A DNA stretch of 64,000 nucleotides from Acidobacteriaceae bacterium (GTDB taxonomy: Bacteria; Acidobacteriota; Terriglobia; Terriglobales; Acidobacteriaceae). This document shows positions 32,271-37,522 of this stretch, in pieces. The first letter of the stretch is position 1. Every line of letters starts with the position of its first letter. Under the pieces are notes generated by a model. It was not told the DNA's origin, did no database searches, and was given only the letters and a program-made list of their open reading frames with translations. Made by a program: the position numbers and the translations under genes. The stretch is taken from the NCBI GenBank assembly GCA_003165075.1, contig PLSM01000119.1, forward strand, positions 103,027-167,026, written 5' to 3'.

Positions 32271-32831
32271 ATGGCGATTTCCGCCACCCAATTACGTCCA
32301 GGAATGATCATCAAGCACAACGAACAGCTGCATCTGGTCTTCAAGGTGGAGCACCGCACGCCCGGCAATCTGCGCGCCTTTATTCAGGCCAAATTGCGCA
32401 ACCTCAAGTCGGGCGCCATGTTCGAACACCGCTTCCGCTCCGCAGACGCCATTGAGAAGGTTGTCGTGGACGAGATTTCCATGGACTTTCTTTATGCCGA
32501 CGGCGACGACTACTACTTCATGAACCCCGTGGACTTTGAGCAGACTGTGCTGAAGGGTTCAACGCTGGGCGACGCGGTCGAATACCTTACCCCCAATCTG
32601 CAAATCAAAGTGAGCTATCACGACGGTCAGGCTGTGGGCATCGAGCTGCCATCGTCAGTCGAACTCGAAGTTGTGGAGACCGAGCCGGGCCTTAAGTCGG
32701 CCACTGCCTCCAGCGTCACCAAGCCCGCCAAGACAGAAACCGGGCTCGTGGTCCAGGTCCCGGCCTTCATCAACGAAGGCGAAAAAATCCGCGTCGACAC
32801 CAGCGAAGGCGCCTACCTCAGCCGCGCCTGA
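32271..32831 (+). CDS. efp: translation elongation factor P
   Basis: The 186-residue protein has the three EF-P domains: an N-terminal KOW-like domain, then the OB domains ending VPAFINEGEKIRVDTSEGAY. It binds the ribosome between the P and E sites and relieves stalling at proline runs. The tip loop of domain I reads TPGNLRAF, so the residue that is Lys34 in E. coli or Arg32 in Pseudomonas is Asn33 here. AAGGAG precedes the ATG at 32271. A hairpin terminator follows. Confidence 0.93.
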   Translation: MAISATQLRPGMIIKHNEQLHLVFKVEHRTPGNLRAFIQAKLRNLKSGAMFEHRFRSADAIEKVVVDEISMDFLYADGDDYYFMNPVDFEQTVLKGSTLGDAVEYLTPNLQIKVSYHDGQAVGIELPSSVELEVVETEPGLKSATASSVTKPAKTETGLVVQVPAFINEGEKIRVDTSEGAYLSRA

Positions 32832-32852
32832 AGTGACTGCTTTCTATCATCG

Positions 32853-32876
32853 ATGCCGGGGCAAACGCTCCGGCAT
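32853..32876 (+). terminator. likely intrinsic terminator after efp
   Basis: ATGCCGG (32853-32859) pairs with CCGGCAT (32870-32876) over a 10-base loop, and TTCGCTTTTG follows. It lies 22 bp after the efp stop in a gap between convergent genes. Confidence 0.5.
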
Positions 32877-32956
32877 TTCGCTTTTGCGCGGTGTCCCATT
32901 ATTTTTTCCCGCGGCAAATAGGGCAGCGGGATGCCCCAGGCTCAAATCAGCGGCCG

Positions 32957-34771
32957 TTACAACTGCACCAGCCTCGCCTCCAGCAGCGCCTCGATGGTGT
33001 CCAGCGCTTCCAGCACTTTATCTGACACAGGCGCATCCACCTGCACCACGGCCAACGCCTTGATCGGCTTGATCCCCGCGCGCTCGCGGCCCAGGGCGAA
33101 GTTGGCAATATTCACGCCTTGCTCGCCCAGAATGGTTCCGATTCTGCCAATCACGCCCGGCACGTCCAGGTTGCGGCACACCAGCAGATTGCCCTCCAGC
33201 GGTGCTTCGATGTCAATGCCGTCGAACTCCAGCAGCCGCGGCTGCTCGCCGTGAATCACGGTTGCCGTGGCGTGACTTGTGCCACCCGCCGTGTGCAGCT
33301 TGATGGCCAGCACCGTGACCGCGCCGCCGCGATGACTGTCCTGTTTCTCCTCGTGAATGCGGATGCCGCGTTCTTCCGCTACCGCCGCCGCGTTGATGCG
33401 GTTCACATTTTCCGAGCCTTGCAAAAGCCCCTCGATTGCCGCATTGCGCACCAGGTCGGTCTTGGCCTCGGCCAGCGCGCCTCCATACACCAGGTCGATG
33501 CCTTCGATTCCGCTCTTGCCGGCCTGCGCCAGAAACGATCCCAGCCGTCCCGCCAGGTCGATGTAAGGCGCCAGTTGCACATACTCTTCGTGGCTCAGCG
33601 AGGGAAGATTCACAGCATTCTGCACCACCCCCAGCTTCAGATACTCCCGCACCTGGCAGGCAATCTGAATCCCCACCGCCTCCTGCGCCTCGGCAGTCGA
33701 CCCGGCAATGTGCGGGGTCAGAATCACGTTCTCCAATTCCGCATACGGCGTGTTCTTGGCCGGCTCCTCCACAAATACATCCAGCGCCGCGCCCGCCACC
33801 TGCCCGCTCTTCAGCGCCGCCACCAGCGCCGCATCGTCCACCAGTTCGCCGCGCGCGCAGTTGATGATGCGCACTCCCTTTTTCATCGCCGCCAGCGTCT
33901 TGGCGTTGATGACTCCGGTCGTCTGCGGTGTGAGTCCCACATGCAGGGTGATGTAGTCCGCGCCCGCAATTAGCTCCTCCAGTGTCACCAGCTTGATGCC
34001 GTTTTCGCGCGCCACGGCTGCCGATACAAACGGGTCGCAGCCCATGATTTCCAGCCCAAAGCCCCGCGCCCGCTTGGCCACTTCCAGCCCGATTCGTCCC
34101 AGCCCCAGGATGCCCAGCGTCTTGCCTCGCAGCTCGGCTCCTTGCAGGCTCTTCTTCTCCCACTTCCCGGCGTGCATGGTGGTGTTGGCCGCGGGCAGCT
34201 TGCGCGCCAGCGCCAGCATCAGGGCAATGGTCAACTCCGCCACCGCCACGGCATTCGCGCCCGGTGTATTCATCACCACAATGCCTCGCCGCGTGGCTGC
34301 ATCGGCATCGATGTTGTCCACGCCCACCCCGGCCCGGCCAATCACGCGCAACTTCGGTGCCTGCTCCATCAACGCGTCATCCACCTGCACCGCCGAGCGC
34401 ACCACCAGCGCATCTGCGTCGGCCAGCGCCGCCGCCAGCCCATCGGGCAGCTTGTCGTGCGTCAGCACTTCCCACCCCGGCTCGGCCGCAAATACGGCCA
34501 GCGTCGCCGGAGAAACCTTCTCTCCCAGAACAATTTTCATCGTGTCTCCCTTGGTTTGCGCTGCGGCTTCATACTCGTCAAAGCGGATGCCGTGCTTCTC
34601 ACACAGCAGCTCGAACATTCGCACCACCGCCGCATGCGGCTTGCCTTCGCCCCGCTCATACTTGGTGACCGAGTTGGGATGCACGCCCAGCCGCTCGGCC
34701 ATCTCGTATTGATAGAGGTCCAGCTGCTTGCGTGCGATCAGCAGCTTCTCTCCAAAACTCAGTTCAGCCAT
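32957..34771 (-). CDS. serA: D-3-phosphoglycerate dehydrogenase with an N-terminal XRE helix-turn-helix domain
   Basis: This open frame encodes 604 residues. Residues 9-65 are an XRE-type helix-turn-helix (LLIARKQLDLYQYEMAERLG, VHPNSVTKYERGEGKPHAAV). From Met78 the protein is a complete type 1 SerA: MKIVLGEKVS, GRAGVGVDNID, the NAD loop LGILGLGRIG, catalytic Arg in CARGELVDD, Glu in FVEEPAK and His in LTPHIAGST, then ASB and ACT domains (LDVPGVIGRIGTIL). It makes 3-phosphohydroxypyruvate for serine. Both starts have ribosome sites: GGGAG before ATG 34771 and AAGGGAG before ATG 34540. Two products, of 604 and 527 residues, are possible. An aminotransferase gene precedes it. Confidence 0.88.
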   Translation of the reverse strand: MAELSFGEKLLIARKQLDLYQYEMAERLGVHPNSVTKYERGEGKPHAAVVRMFELLCEKHGIRFDEYEAAAQTKGDTMKIVLGEKVSPATLAVFAAEPGWEVLTHDKLPDGLAAALADADALVVRSAVQVDDALMEQAPKLRVIGRAGVGVDNIDADAATRRGIVVMNTPGANAVAVAELTIALMLALARKLPAANTTMHAGKWEKKSLQGAELRGKTLGILGLGRIGLEVAKRARGFGLEIMGCDPFVSAAVARENGIKLVTLEELIAGADYITLHVGLTPQTTGVINAKTLAAMKKGVRIINCARGELVDDAALVAALKSGQVAGAALDVFVEEPAKNTPYAELENVILTPHIAGSTAEAQEAVGIQIACQVREYLKLGVVQNAVNLPSLSHEEYVQLAPYIDLAGRLGSFLAQAGKSGIEGIDLVYGGALAEAKTDLVRNAAIEGLLQGSENVNRINAAAVAEERGIRIHEEKQDSHRGGAVTVLAIKLHTAGGTSHATATVIHGEQPRLLEFDGIDIEAPLEGNLLVCRNLDVPGVIGRIGTILGEQGVNIANFALGRERAGIKPIKALAVVQVDAPVSDKVLEALDTIEALLEARLVQL

Positions 34772-34788
34772 AAAAACAGCTCCCAGCT

Positions 34789-34882
34789 AGTGAACAGTGG
34801 ACAGTGGCCAGTGAACGGCTAACGATCAATAGCCTGCAGCCTGCAGCGAATGGCAACAACTGTTCACTGTCCACTGTTCACT
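34789..34882. repeat. 18-bp inverted repeat between the aminotransferase and serA
   Basis: AGTGAACAGTGGACAGTG at 34789-34806 is repeated exactly in reverse complement at 34865-34882, with 58 bp between. The far arm contains the stop codon of the aminotransferase and the near arm lies 18 bp upstream of serA, so the mRNA could form an 18-bp stem. The arms are themselves built from ACAGTG units. It could be a processing or attenuation structure, or a degenerate interspersed repeat. Confidence 0.7.
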
Positions 34883-36045
34883 GCCTTCGCATAGACCTGC
34901 TGTGCCGCCGCTACCGCCTGCCCATACACCACCGGCAGCCCCAGCGTGTCCTTGGCAATGTGCTCCATCGCTCCCAGCAGCGCCACCGTGTCCAGATAGT
35001 CGAAGAATCCCAGGTGCGCCACACGGAAGATCTTTCCCTGCATCTCGCCCTGCCCGTTGGCCGTCACCAGAGCAAAGCGCGTCTTCAGCGCCTTCACTAC
35101 GTCGCCCGAATTCATTCCCTCCGGCACCGCGACTGCTGTAGCGGCCGCCGCCGGAGACTTAGGCGCAAAAAGCGTAAAGCCCAGTGCCACCAGCCCGGCA
35201 CGCGTTGCCGCCGCATTCACCTGCGCGTTGTCCACCAGCGCGATGCGTCCTTTTTCCAGATCCCCGCCGGCCTGCCCGGCAATGTAGTCCAGCGCCGCGC
35301 CCAGTCCTGCAATCAATGCCACCGCTGGCGTATACGCGCTTTCGCCCTTCGCCGCGTTCTTCCGCTCCTTGCGCAGGTCAAAGTAGTAGCGCGGATTCTT
35401 CGACTTCTCCATCTCCGCCCACGCCTTCTCGCTCACACTCAGGTAGGCCAGCCCCGGCGGAATCATCACCGCTTTCTGCGAACCGCCAATCAGCACGTCG
35501 ATTCCCCAGCCGTCCACATCGAAGTGCGTGGTGCCCAGCCCGGTAATCCCATCCACCACCAGCAGCGCCTCACTCTCGGCTGCTTTCAATAGCTTCGCCA
35601 CTGCCTCCACATCGTGGCGCACCGCGGTTGAGGTCTCGGTGGCCTGCATGTAAACCACCTTGTATTCCGGCTTCAGCGCCGCCCGCACCGCCTCCAGGTC
35701 GAATGTCTCGCCATAGGGCGCGCTCACCACGTCCACTTCGCAGCCAAACGCCTTTGCCAGCCCCACCCAGCGCTCGCCAAACTTGCCCGCGGAAAGCACC
35801 AGCACCTTGTCTCCCGGCGAAGTCAGATTCGAAACGGACGCTTCCATGGCCCCGGTCCCCGAACTCGACAGCAGCAGCACATCGTTCCTGGTGCCGACAA
35901 AGACCTTCAGCTGGCCAAGTACCCGCTGGAACAGGGCGCGAAACTCCGGCGTGCGGTGGTGCATGTCTGCGGCGGCCATGGCAAACTGGGCCGCCGGAAG
36001 CAGCGGTGTCGGACCGGGTGTAAAAAGGCGCGTTTTGCGAATCAT
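34864..36045 (-). CDS. class V aminotransferase (serine-/alanine-glyoxylate aminotransferase type)
   Basis: This 393-residue fold-I PLP enzyme begins MIRKTRLFTPGPTPLLPA. LLLSSSGTGAMEASVSNL and VVDGITGLG follow, and the PLP Lys is in IGGSQKAVMIPPGLAYLS, typical of the AGAT/SGAT/PucG group. It sits directly upstream of serA on the same strand, which suggests it serves as the phosphoserine aminotransferase or a serine-linked transaminase. That role is inferred from context. GAGGA precedes ATG 36045 by about 8 bases. The last codons lie in one arm of the inverted repeat. Confidence 0.85.
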   Translation of the reverse strand: MIRKTRLFTPGPTPLLPAAQFAMAAADMHHRTPEFRALFQRVLGQLKVFVGTRNDVLLLSSSGTGAMEASVSNLTSPGDKVLVLSAGKFGERWVGLAKAFGCEVDVVSAPYGETFDLEAVRAALKPEYKVVYMQATETSTAVRHDVEAVAKLLKAAESEALLVVDGITGLGTTHFDVDGWGIDVLIGGSQKAVMIPPGLAYLSVSEKAWAEMEKSKNPRYYFDLRKERKNAAKGESAYTPAVALIAGLGAALDYIAGQAGGDLEKGRIALVDNAQVNAAATRAGLVALGFTLFAPKSPAAAATAVAVPEGMNSGDVVKALKTRFALVTANGQGEMQGKIFRVAHLGFFDYLDTVALLGAMEHIAKDTLGLPVVYGQAVAAAQQVYAKAVNSGQ

Positions 36046-36244
36046 CTTTTTTCCTCGTTTTGGGCCGGGAGTAGGAATCAAACCGGCCGCCACTCACAGA
36101 ATACACATTTATGTGGTTTCTGTGAATTATTTTCCTGTGCAAATCTGCCCTCTCGATACAGCAAAGATCAGTACAATTCTCACGAAGTTTGTTCCGGGCC
36201 GGGATCGTCGCCTGCCGTCGCCCCGCCAATGCAAGGAAGATCCT

Positions 36245-37522
36245 ATGAAAGAGCAAAAAATCGATCGTGCGGCCAATTCGGTTGACCGCCGAACATGCTT
36301 GAAGTCCTTAGGGGTACTCGCGCTCGCTGGTGTCCCGTGCGCCGCCGCGTCCAACCCCGCCGGAGGGCAGACTGAAATGCACAAGGGAGAAAGCGACATA
36401 GGAACCCTCTTCCCCGCAATCAAAGGGCTGGCGGACCAGTGCCGCTATCCGCTTTCCTGGCTGGAGCGCGACTATTCCGGACCCGAGGCATATCGTCGCG
36501 CCGTCCGCGAAAAGGTGCTCGAGCTATTCCACTACGCGCCTCCACCGGTGGATCCGGCTCCTGAAGTGGTCGATCGATGGGAAACGCCGGAGTACGTTCA
36601 GGAAAAGATCCTCTTCTCCACCACCCCCTGGTTTCGTGTTCCCGCTTATGTACTCATCCCTAAAGGGCGAAAGGGCCCTCGCCCGGCCATCGTGGATGTT
36701 CATTCGCATGGCGGCTCGTTTGTCTTTGGAAAAGAAAAAGTCATGCCCGTGCGCGGCGGAGATTCTGCCGCTCTCACCAAGTTCCGCATCGAGAATTACG
36801 AAGGCCGCCCCACCTCGTTAGCCCTGTGCCGCCGTGGATACGTGGTGATCTCGATCGACTGTTTCTATTTCGGCGAGCGCAGAACTCTCTTCGGAGACGA
36901 TGCTCAAAAGTACGGCGTCAGCCAGTTGAAGTATTCCGTCGAAGATGTGGAGCATTTGAATCACCGAGCCAGTGCCGGCGAAGCAACGCTGGCCAAGTCC
37001 CTCTGCTGGGCTGGCGTCACCTGGCAGGGAATTGCCAGTTGGGACGACATGCGCACAGTGGACTACCTGGTTACCCGCCCCGAAGTGGACCCCTCGCGAG
37101 TTGGCTGTGTCGGCATATCCATGGGCGGATGGCGCTCCGATTTTCTCGCCGGCCTCGACGACCGCATCCAGTGCGCGGTGGCCGTGGGTTGGATGTCCAC
37201 CTTGCGCCCCATGATTCGCGCCCACGTCGATACCCACAGCTTCATGCATTTTCTTTCCGGTCTCACCAGCTTTGTCGATTTGCCCGACGTCCTGGGCTGC
37301 AGGGTTCCCAAGCCGCTCATGGTGCAGGAATGTTCACGCGACGAGCTATTTCCGATGGAAGGCATGAAAGAAGCGGTGACCAAACTTGGAGCCATTTACG
37401 CCAAGGCGGGTGCGACGGACAAGTTCCTCAGCCGCTTTTACGACCGGCCCCACATCTTCGGCCTCGACATGCAGGAGGATGCCTTCGACTGGCTCGACCG
37501 CTGGCTCAAGCCTGCGCTTTAG
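36245..37522 (+). CDS. secreted alpha/beta hydrolase
   Basis: The 425-residue protein has a Tat/Sec-like leader (DRRTCLKSLGVLALAGVP, residues about 15-32). The alpha/beta hydrolase core has VDVHSHGGSFVFGK for the oxyanion side and the nucleophile Ser292 in VGISMGGWRS. An acid in CSRDELFP and a His in YDRPHIFG near the end complete the triad. Such secreted dienelactone/acetyl-xylan-esterase-like enzymes act on esters of plant or microbial polymers. AGGAAG precedes the ATG at 36245, and upstream in-frame residues do not resemble the family. It is divergent from the aminotransferase. Confidence 0.82.
   Translation: MKEQKIDRAANSVDRRTCLKSLGVLALAGVPCAAASNPAGGQTEMHKGESDIGTLFPAIKGLADQCRYPLSWLERDYSGPEAYRRAVREKVLELFHYAPPPVDPAPEVVDRWETPEYVQEKILFSTTPWFRVPAYVLIPKGRKGPRPAIVDVHSHGGSFVFGKEKVMPVRGGDSAALTKFRIENYEGRPTSLALCRRGYVVISIDCFYFGERRTLFGDDAQKYGVSQLKYSVEDVEHLNHRASAGEATLAKSLCWAGVTWQGIASWDDMRTVDYLVTRPEVDPSRVGCVGISMGGWRSDFLAGLDDRIQCAVAVGWMSTLRPMIRAHVDTHSFMHFLSGLTSFVDLPDVLGCRVPKPLMVQECSRDELFPMEGMKEAVTKLGAIYAKAGATDKFLSRFYDRPHIFGLDMQEDAFDWLDRWLKPAL

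Follow-up and report, generated by a model that had tools for sequence, protein, structure and literature searches.

Control of serine synthesis commonly falls to separate regulators or to feedback inhibition of the enzyme. Among enzymes that also bind DNA, PutA has a ribbon-helix-helix DNA-binding fold and NadR carries an XRE-type N-terminal helix-turn-helix (HTH), and we know of no isoform of NadR or BirA that lacks its DNA-binding head. Five trigger enzymes have been named for Escherichia coli, BirA, NadR, PepA, PutA, and PyrH; in the same source PutA, a proline dehydrogenase with a DNA-binding domain, is given as binding its own locus only, and NadR and BirA are called multi-target (PMC8249747). 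The type I phosphoglycerate dehydrogenase (PGDH) of Mycobacterium tuberculosis is a tetramer that binds L-serine at the ACT interface via Tyr461, Asp463, and Asn481, and the word "DNA" is absent from the main text of the PGDH review that describes it (PMC6300728). For human PHGDH, also a phosphoglycerate dehydrogenase, one report claims a role as a promoter-binding nuclear transcription factor with inflammatory targets, acting through a motif inside the enzyme (residues 210 to 310) (PMC13028801).

Here, we analyzed a 64,000-nucleotide stretch of a contig from an Acidobacteriaceae bacterium (the window), in which a sequence-only reading had noted a SerA joined to an XRE domain and knew of no described SerA of this form. 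The literature searched, with most subscription papers outside its coverage, likewise held no described XRE-SerA, and the nearest claim was that for human PHGDH, from which the window's SerA differs in having an added XRE domain. The M. tuberculosis enzyme (1ygy, 3dc2, and 3ddn) belongs to the same enzyme family and has the same domains, whereas it is without a DNA-binding head, and the Tyr461 of its serine site corresponds to Asn534 in the window's SerA. XRE-SerA looks to work like the E. coli trigger enzymes. As in PutA, a single target in its own operon region is proposed, whereas PutA has another DNA-binding fold and is catabolic and membrane-switched, and XRE-SerA combines an XRE fold with a biosynthetic, ACT-domain enzyme and a predicted second internal start. 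NadR and BirA are other enzymes of other pathways, and their multiple targets contrast with the single operator predicted here. Based on genome sequence, we consider it likely that this XRE-headed PGDH is a trigger enzyme that represses its own aminotransferase-serA operon and whose second start provides a head-less SerA; what is new is a predicted 32-bp palindromic operator over the aminotransferase-XRE-SerA promoter.

The fused gene and its distribution

The fused gene is an open frame at 32957..34771 on the reverse strand, with a start at ATG 34771 and an in-frame ATG at 34540 that encodes Met78 (Table 1); the bases preceding these two codons are ACTAGCTGGGAGCTGTTTTT and CGCAAACCAAGGGAGACACG, respectively. 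Its 604-aa product joins an XRE HTH head through a flexible linker to a complete type I SerA that restarts at Met78. The full-length predicted model has a mean pLDDT of 83.7 and a pTM of 0.59, with values below 50 for residues 67 to 75, between head and enzyme.

Table 1. Features of the XRE-SerA operon (positions in the window)
Feature	Position	Strand	Evidence
Complete type I SerA, residues 78-604, with intervening (ASB) and ACT domains	32957..34540	-	TIGR01327, Foldseek
Internal start Met78	34538..34540	-	Conserved 37/37, 80/80, 196/196; start signatures
Variable linker, residues 67-77, ending in internal Shine-Dalgarno AAGGGAG (Lys74-Gly75)	34541..34573	-	pLDDT <50, pN/pS 0.59
XRE helix-turn-helix head, residues 1-66, recognition helix 32-39	34574..34771	-	HTH_3, predicted structure, Foldseek, pN/pS 0.195
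Intergenic gap with long-form Shine-Dalgarno; 5-278 b in fused relatives, unconserved	34772..34863	-	
Class V (PLP) aminotransferase, first operon gene, ATG 36045	34864..36045	-	PF00266 2.9e-26
32-bp palindromic operator (predicted): four TCACA-type boxes, 9-bp steps, two direct and two inverted	36094..36125	-	0 mismatches to clade pattern
Sigma-70-like promoter TTCACA - 17 - TATTCT, within operator	36098..36126	-	One promoter-like match in 32700-36400

The enzyme part matches TIGR01327 (phosphoglycerate dehydrogenase) over residues 80 to 604, with 562 bits versus a cut-off of 454. Its best Foldseek matches are the M. tuberculosis PGDH structures 3ddn, 1ygy, and 3dc2 (E, 3e-49), which are also closest in sequence; the low TM-scores (0.34 to 0.42) indicate that the domain arrangement of the model differs from that of the crystal. 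Arg307, Glu336, and His354, which we take to be the catalytic Arg, Glu, and His through alignment to 1ygy, are invariant in 66 fused and unfused sequences. Equally invariant in that set are the equivalents of the M. tuberculosis serine site, Asn534 (for Tyr461), Asp536, and Asn554, two of which match. Besides the fusion, the window's genome contains three further SerA matches, all partial and with E values of 8e-49 or weaker, so the fusion gene is most likely also the enzyme source of this genome.

Pfam HTH_3 was found at residues 13 to 50, with an E value of 1.5e-7 for the whole protein (above cut-off) and 1.7e-8 for the first 77 residues alone. In the predicted head model (mean pLDDT, 91.5), helices span residues 6 to 16, 21 to 28, 32 to 39, and 47 to 60, so that the HTH placed at residues 9 to 65 by the sequence-only reading is present but starts slightly before residue 9. 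The closest solved sequence, from a profile of 16 heads, is MqsA 3fmy (2.7e-5), and the head resembles the P22 c2 repressor, HipB, C.BclI, and MqsA in fold (Foldseek probability of 1.00, but E of 2e-3 or worse). Domains of the MqsA, P22 c2, and HipB type, which are the nearest solved sequences (MqsA) and folds, belong to antitoxins or phage repressors and are not enzyme parts, whereas here the head sits on an enzyme. In an alignment set of 37 loci, which was picked for aligning through the head and shares genomes with the 80 loci described below, recognition-helix residues N33, S34, and K37 are invariant. Over all pairs of the 37 sequences, the HTH core has a pN/pS of 0.165 and the linker one of 0.59; for the head it is 0.195 versus 0.236 for the body. 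Judged by these ratios, purifying selection acts on the head no less strongly than on the enzyme.

A head-profile scan of a named genome collection returned 84 relatives, 80 of which were kept, all titled as Acidobacteria or a group or genus therein and including the cultured Terracidiphilus gabretensis S55, Occallatibacter savannae AB23, and Acidicapsa dinghuensis 4GSKX. Although fetched by the head alone, all 80 loci run in frame into Met78 and SerA, with four frames stopping early within the enzyme (L148, L172, L173, and L176). With head, Met78, and SerA in one frame at every locus, the fusion is confirmed by sequence comparison as real and above chance. The joining of an XRE head to a complete SerA restarting at Met78, as first read from the window, is thus borne out by the HTH_3 and TIGR01327 matches and by these loci. 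The same reading had staked its case on purifying selection in the first 77 codons and on a 5' extension shared by orthologues: the former is seen in the head, and the clade orthologues carry the XRE extension.

Of 24 further genus members, 20 contain the fused frame beginning at residue 1 or 2 (that of G021 is cut at residue 539), the gene was found in three pieces in G007, and the head was not found in G003, G014, or G024. A head search of 200 family genomes recovered it from 21 (10 belong to the window's genus, 9 to g48, and 2 to g11), the other 179 being without it; 56 of 298 order genomes carry it, all of them from the window's genus or g48. Within the genus it is present in 72 of 80 genomes, and in 42 of 42 of those of good quality. 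The eight genus genomes without a head match include G003, G014, G024, G324, and G340, in which the operator described below is present before the aminotransferase and the sequence stops 0.4 to 1.5 kb past it, short of the whole serA. At the level of these comparisons, the fusion is confirmed as conserved in one Acidobacteriaceae clade of soil bacteria that comprises Terracidiphilus/Occallatibacter, Acidicapsa, and one further genus.

In a maximum-likelihood tree of the enzyme part, 36 fused sequences form one clade (94/92) versus 23 unfused ones, which points to a single gain of the head. In the unfused relatives examined, the start of SerA coincides with the position of Met78 and reads M[KR][IVL] (MKIVLAEKVSP in most family members), and the aminotransferase lies upstream of SerA in 27/27 fused and, by motif, 12/14 unfused loci, far away in one of the latter. 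A donor of the head was not found among the 200 family genomes and 298 order genomes or in the protein search, and no XRE gene was detected near the 14 unfused loci (head profile, E of ≤0.1). An ancestral separate upstream XRE gene, fused by stop-codon loss between old neighbors, is accordingly unsupported by these 14 loci. Apparent SerA extensions in other genera (G050, G110, G122, G054, and G112) were rejected, as they start before residue 60 only by stop-codon read-through.

Some metagenome proteins depart from this pattern at the level of their protein letters. Six short ones of 76 to 79 aa (P0200, P0201, P0209, P0225, P0234, and P0221) have an intact head with a frame-shifted basic tail and appear to terminate at a TGA that would overlap the SerA ATG, like separate overlapping xre and serA genes; P0210, P0211, P0215, P0237, and P0238 shift into the third frame, and P0207 and P0231 apparently end just before Met78. 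The out-of-frame proteins may be errors or real split genes, and many resemble contig ends or frame-shifts. The genus search returned no frame ending in the linker, the shortest being that of G305 (123 aa), at a contig end.

The operon and its predicted operator

The first gene of the operon encodes an aminotransferase whose closest solved relatives are 1iug and the serine--glyoxylate aminotransferase 6pk1. It reaches no NCBIfam cut-off (BhcA, 280 bits versus 650) and may be the putative phosphoserine transaminase partner of SerA. The mechanical open reading frame of this gene starts at GTG 36093, adjoining the operator; ATG 36045, further downstream and the likely start, matches the conserved MIRKTRLFTPGPTP start in relatives.

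Side-by-side comparison of 25 fused-clade regions brought out a common conserved block upstream of the aminotransferase. The consensus of the predicted operator is TCACA-N4-YCACA-N4-TGTGTATTMTGTGA; the window has it with 0 mismatches, and the shuffled window gives none. Counting palindromic matches on both strands as one place and allowing ≤3 mismatches, we found it in 21/200 family genomes, at one place each, and not in the other 179, and a reversed control pattern had no match. These are the same 21 genomes that have the head; the other 179 have neither, 18 of them having had no SerA match at an E of ≤1e-100. Since the fused genomes form one clade, this co-occurrence counts as a single evolutionary event. 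At the same threshold, the operator is present at 70 of the 71 loci of the named collection with at least 1,700 b upstream, and at four mismatches at the remaining one (L173). An exact-expression scan, which is less sensitive than the ≤3-mismatch search, located the site in 23/27 fused and 0/14 unfused loci. An operator in the gap adjoining the fused gene was considered and rejected, that gap being variable in length and unconserved.

G007 and L173, whose contigs are both 31,400 b long, stand apart. Of the genomes checked, G007 alone combines the head with no operator match at ≤3 mismatches, and its fused gene is in pieces; at L173, the operator has four mismatches and the fused frame ends early, after 433 aa. 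This is perhaps a decaying head-operator pair, or an assembly error.

Among 72 unique sites chosen at ≤4 mismatches, the CACA/TGTG cores hardly vary, and outside the site information drops steeply save for a mild A/T-rich stretch ∼15 bases upstream. As promoter hexamers, TTCACA occurs in 45 of these sites and TATTCT or TATTAT in 69. That the right half is fixed as TATTM, whereas substitutions are tolerated in the left half, would follow from a need for the −10 box. The single promoter-like match in 32700-36400 compares with 0.5 expected by chance and is weak when taken alone. No promoter-like site lies directly before the head or Met78 in this interval, so both products would share one mRNA. 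At L187 and L192, the −10 reads TAAACT or TAAAAT in place of TATTCT/TATTAT; their sites are those of G113 and G042, genomes of g11, the deepest fused lineage in the enzyme tree.

Head and operator also appear to vary together. Residue 46, in the loop from the recognition helix to helix 4, is His or Gln and changes twice on the tree, with Gln46 in the Acidicapsa group (9/9 tips) and the T. gabretensis group (3/3). Operator positions 7 and 8 (AA or TT) change on the same two branches, and of 415 variable columns (70 sequences), no other shares as much mutual information with their state as residue 46. In three columns, every change falls on an operator-change branch: residue 46 (two changes) and residues 323 and 454 (one each, in a single sequence); recognition-helix residue 36 ranks seventh by mutual information, with 2/7 changes on such branches. 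Two of the four operator changes are without a match at residue 46, L032 having gained TT with His46 and L186 having lost TT, with AA beside Gln46. From g11 as the deepest fused lineage, we infer that His46 is ancestral. Because the pair was found by scanning many pairs, the covariation is support rather than proof. Together with a clade-specific, single-copy operator over the promoter, it favors regulation of the own operon, as the sequence-only reading had proposed; the predicted site, however, lies about 1.3 kb upstream of the fused gene, before the aminotransferase.

The probable second start

Met78 is kept at all 37 and all 80 loci and in all 196 proteins from protein searches, which are close relatives that include near-copies of the window's protein. 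Linker length varies across the 80 loci, placing this Met at 75, 76, 77, 78, 80, 82, 83, or 84, while the frame is always kept, which argues that the joined protein is made. A Shine-Dalgarno pairing energy of ≤−5 precedes Met78 in 34/37 loci; the corresponding shares are 73% for the primary starts and 19.5% for the 313 other internal Mets. The codon for Gly75 is GGA or GGG in 32/35, compared with 538/2,111 (25%) of Gly codons elsewhere, and the ten codons after Met78 have A or T as third base in 43% of cases (48% after the primary start), against a frame-window mean of 23% and a highest non-overlapping window of 32%. Local folding is weak at Met78 (−10.5 kcal/mol) and at the primary start (−11.0 kcal/mol), whereas 28 body windows average −19.1 kcal/mol, the weakest being −10.6 kcal/mol. 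In three Acidicapsa-type loci, the internal pairing is weak, at about −3.3.

Based on these signatures, both starts are probably used, yielding two predicted products, the 604-aa protein and the Met78 form. The two products that the sequence-only reading had foreseen agree with the pairing, the Gly75 codon, the third bases, and the folding; the synonymous null for the pairing gives less. With the peptide kept, mean Shine-Dalgarno pairing is −6.3 versus −7.7 observed, and 3/37 loci reach 0.05 or less alone; the KG peptide before Met78 forces much of the Shine-Dalgarno, so that the internal signal is not much stronger than the null and the test is weak. This is what would be expected if only the long form were made and autoregulated, with Met78 and its Shine-Dalgarno explained as a remnant of the unfused gene together with protein constraint acting on the MKIVLAEK strand, and the residues after Met78 are indeed conserved in unfused SerA as well. 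Yet dS is above 1 in each region across all 37 sequences, and despite synonymous sites this close to saturation the GGR codon at Gly75, the A/T third bases, and the weak folding persist, as does Met78 in every protein found. We therefore regard production of the long form only as unlikely.

Proposed mechanism and alternatives

In the reading that we prefer, an XRE-headed PGDH with a second start, the head would have been gained once, in the ancestor of the Terracidiphilus-Acidicapsa clade, together with a matching operator over its own promoter. The long form would bind the 32-bp operator and, as this spans the −35 and −10 boxes, block RNA polymerase. The Met78 start would yield head-less SerA from the same mRNA, which would join the same oligomers, supply catalysis, and dilute the heads, so that enough enzyme could be made without a DNA-binding head on each subunit. 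The ACT/ASB domains would relay the level of serine (or substrate) to the head: high serine would hold the binding state, with strong repression, and low serine or substrate titration would release it. Serine is our candidate signal, and DNA binding, repression, and the two proteins are predictions read from genomes.

Since type I PGDH forms tetramers, the four TCACA boxes could be met by four heads, and the coincidence of four subunits, four heads, and four boxes at 9-bp steps suggests the enzyme tetramer as the reader of the operator. Tentatively, and with somewhat less than even confidence, we propose that the tetramer sets four heads on the four boxes and that the ratio of long to head-less subunits, fixed by the two starts of the one mRNA, tunes the strength with which enzyme load and serine shut down the operon. 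If so, one gene would be enzyme, feedback-inhibited sensor, and single-site repressor together.

Other explanations keep the fusion and change its role. Some XRE proteins act as activators, and the −10 box TATTCT deviates from consensus, in line with XRE-SerA activating the operon instead of repressing it; the site nevertheless covers the entire −35 to −10 interval, where binding would exclude polymerase, and activation seems quite unlikely to us. The operator might instead serve a different clade-specific regulator, with the SerA head doing another job, such as protein-protein contact. Confinement to a single clade does confound the co-occurrence of head and operator, but head residues 46 and 36 covary with the operator, there is one site per genome, before this operon's aminotransferase in the loci read, and the head is a canonical HTH with its three recognition-helix residues invariant in the 37 sequences, all of which make a separate regulator very unlikely. 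About a dozen short metagenome proteins with the head apparently frame-shifted from SerA could be taken to mean that faulty assembly or gene calling produced the fusion, or that the head is a decaying passenger. Against this, the frame is intact in cultured strains and dozens of genomes and the head is under purifying selection, which renders the idea extremely improbable.

Under the preferred reading of XRE-SerA as an autorepressor, the committed, first enzyme of serine synthesis appears to be its own repressor, and the operator, the promoter geometry, and the partner residues can be read from genome sequence. If true, an ACT-domain biosynthetic enzyme would join the short list of trigger enzymes, and the locus would be a natural example of an enzyme gaining a DNA-binding head and its operator in a single evolutionary step. 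The two-isoform design would be testable, and could be rebuilt, in a laboratory strain.

The surroundings of the fused gene contain further elements. Inverted copies of CACTGTCCACTGTTCACT at 34789-34813 and 34865-34882 flank the aminotransferase stop and the gap (3 matches, 0 expected), and tgttcac/gtgaac-like repeats occur in the gaps of several relatives, possibly as a REP-like or stem element. Downstream, a convergent gene at 32271-32831, whose product presumably resembles elongation factor P, is separated from the fused gene by a terminator-like stem at 32852-32877 on the forward strand.
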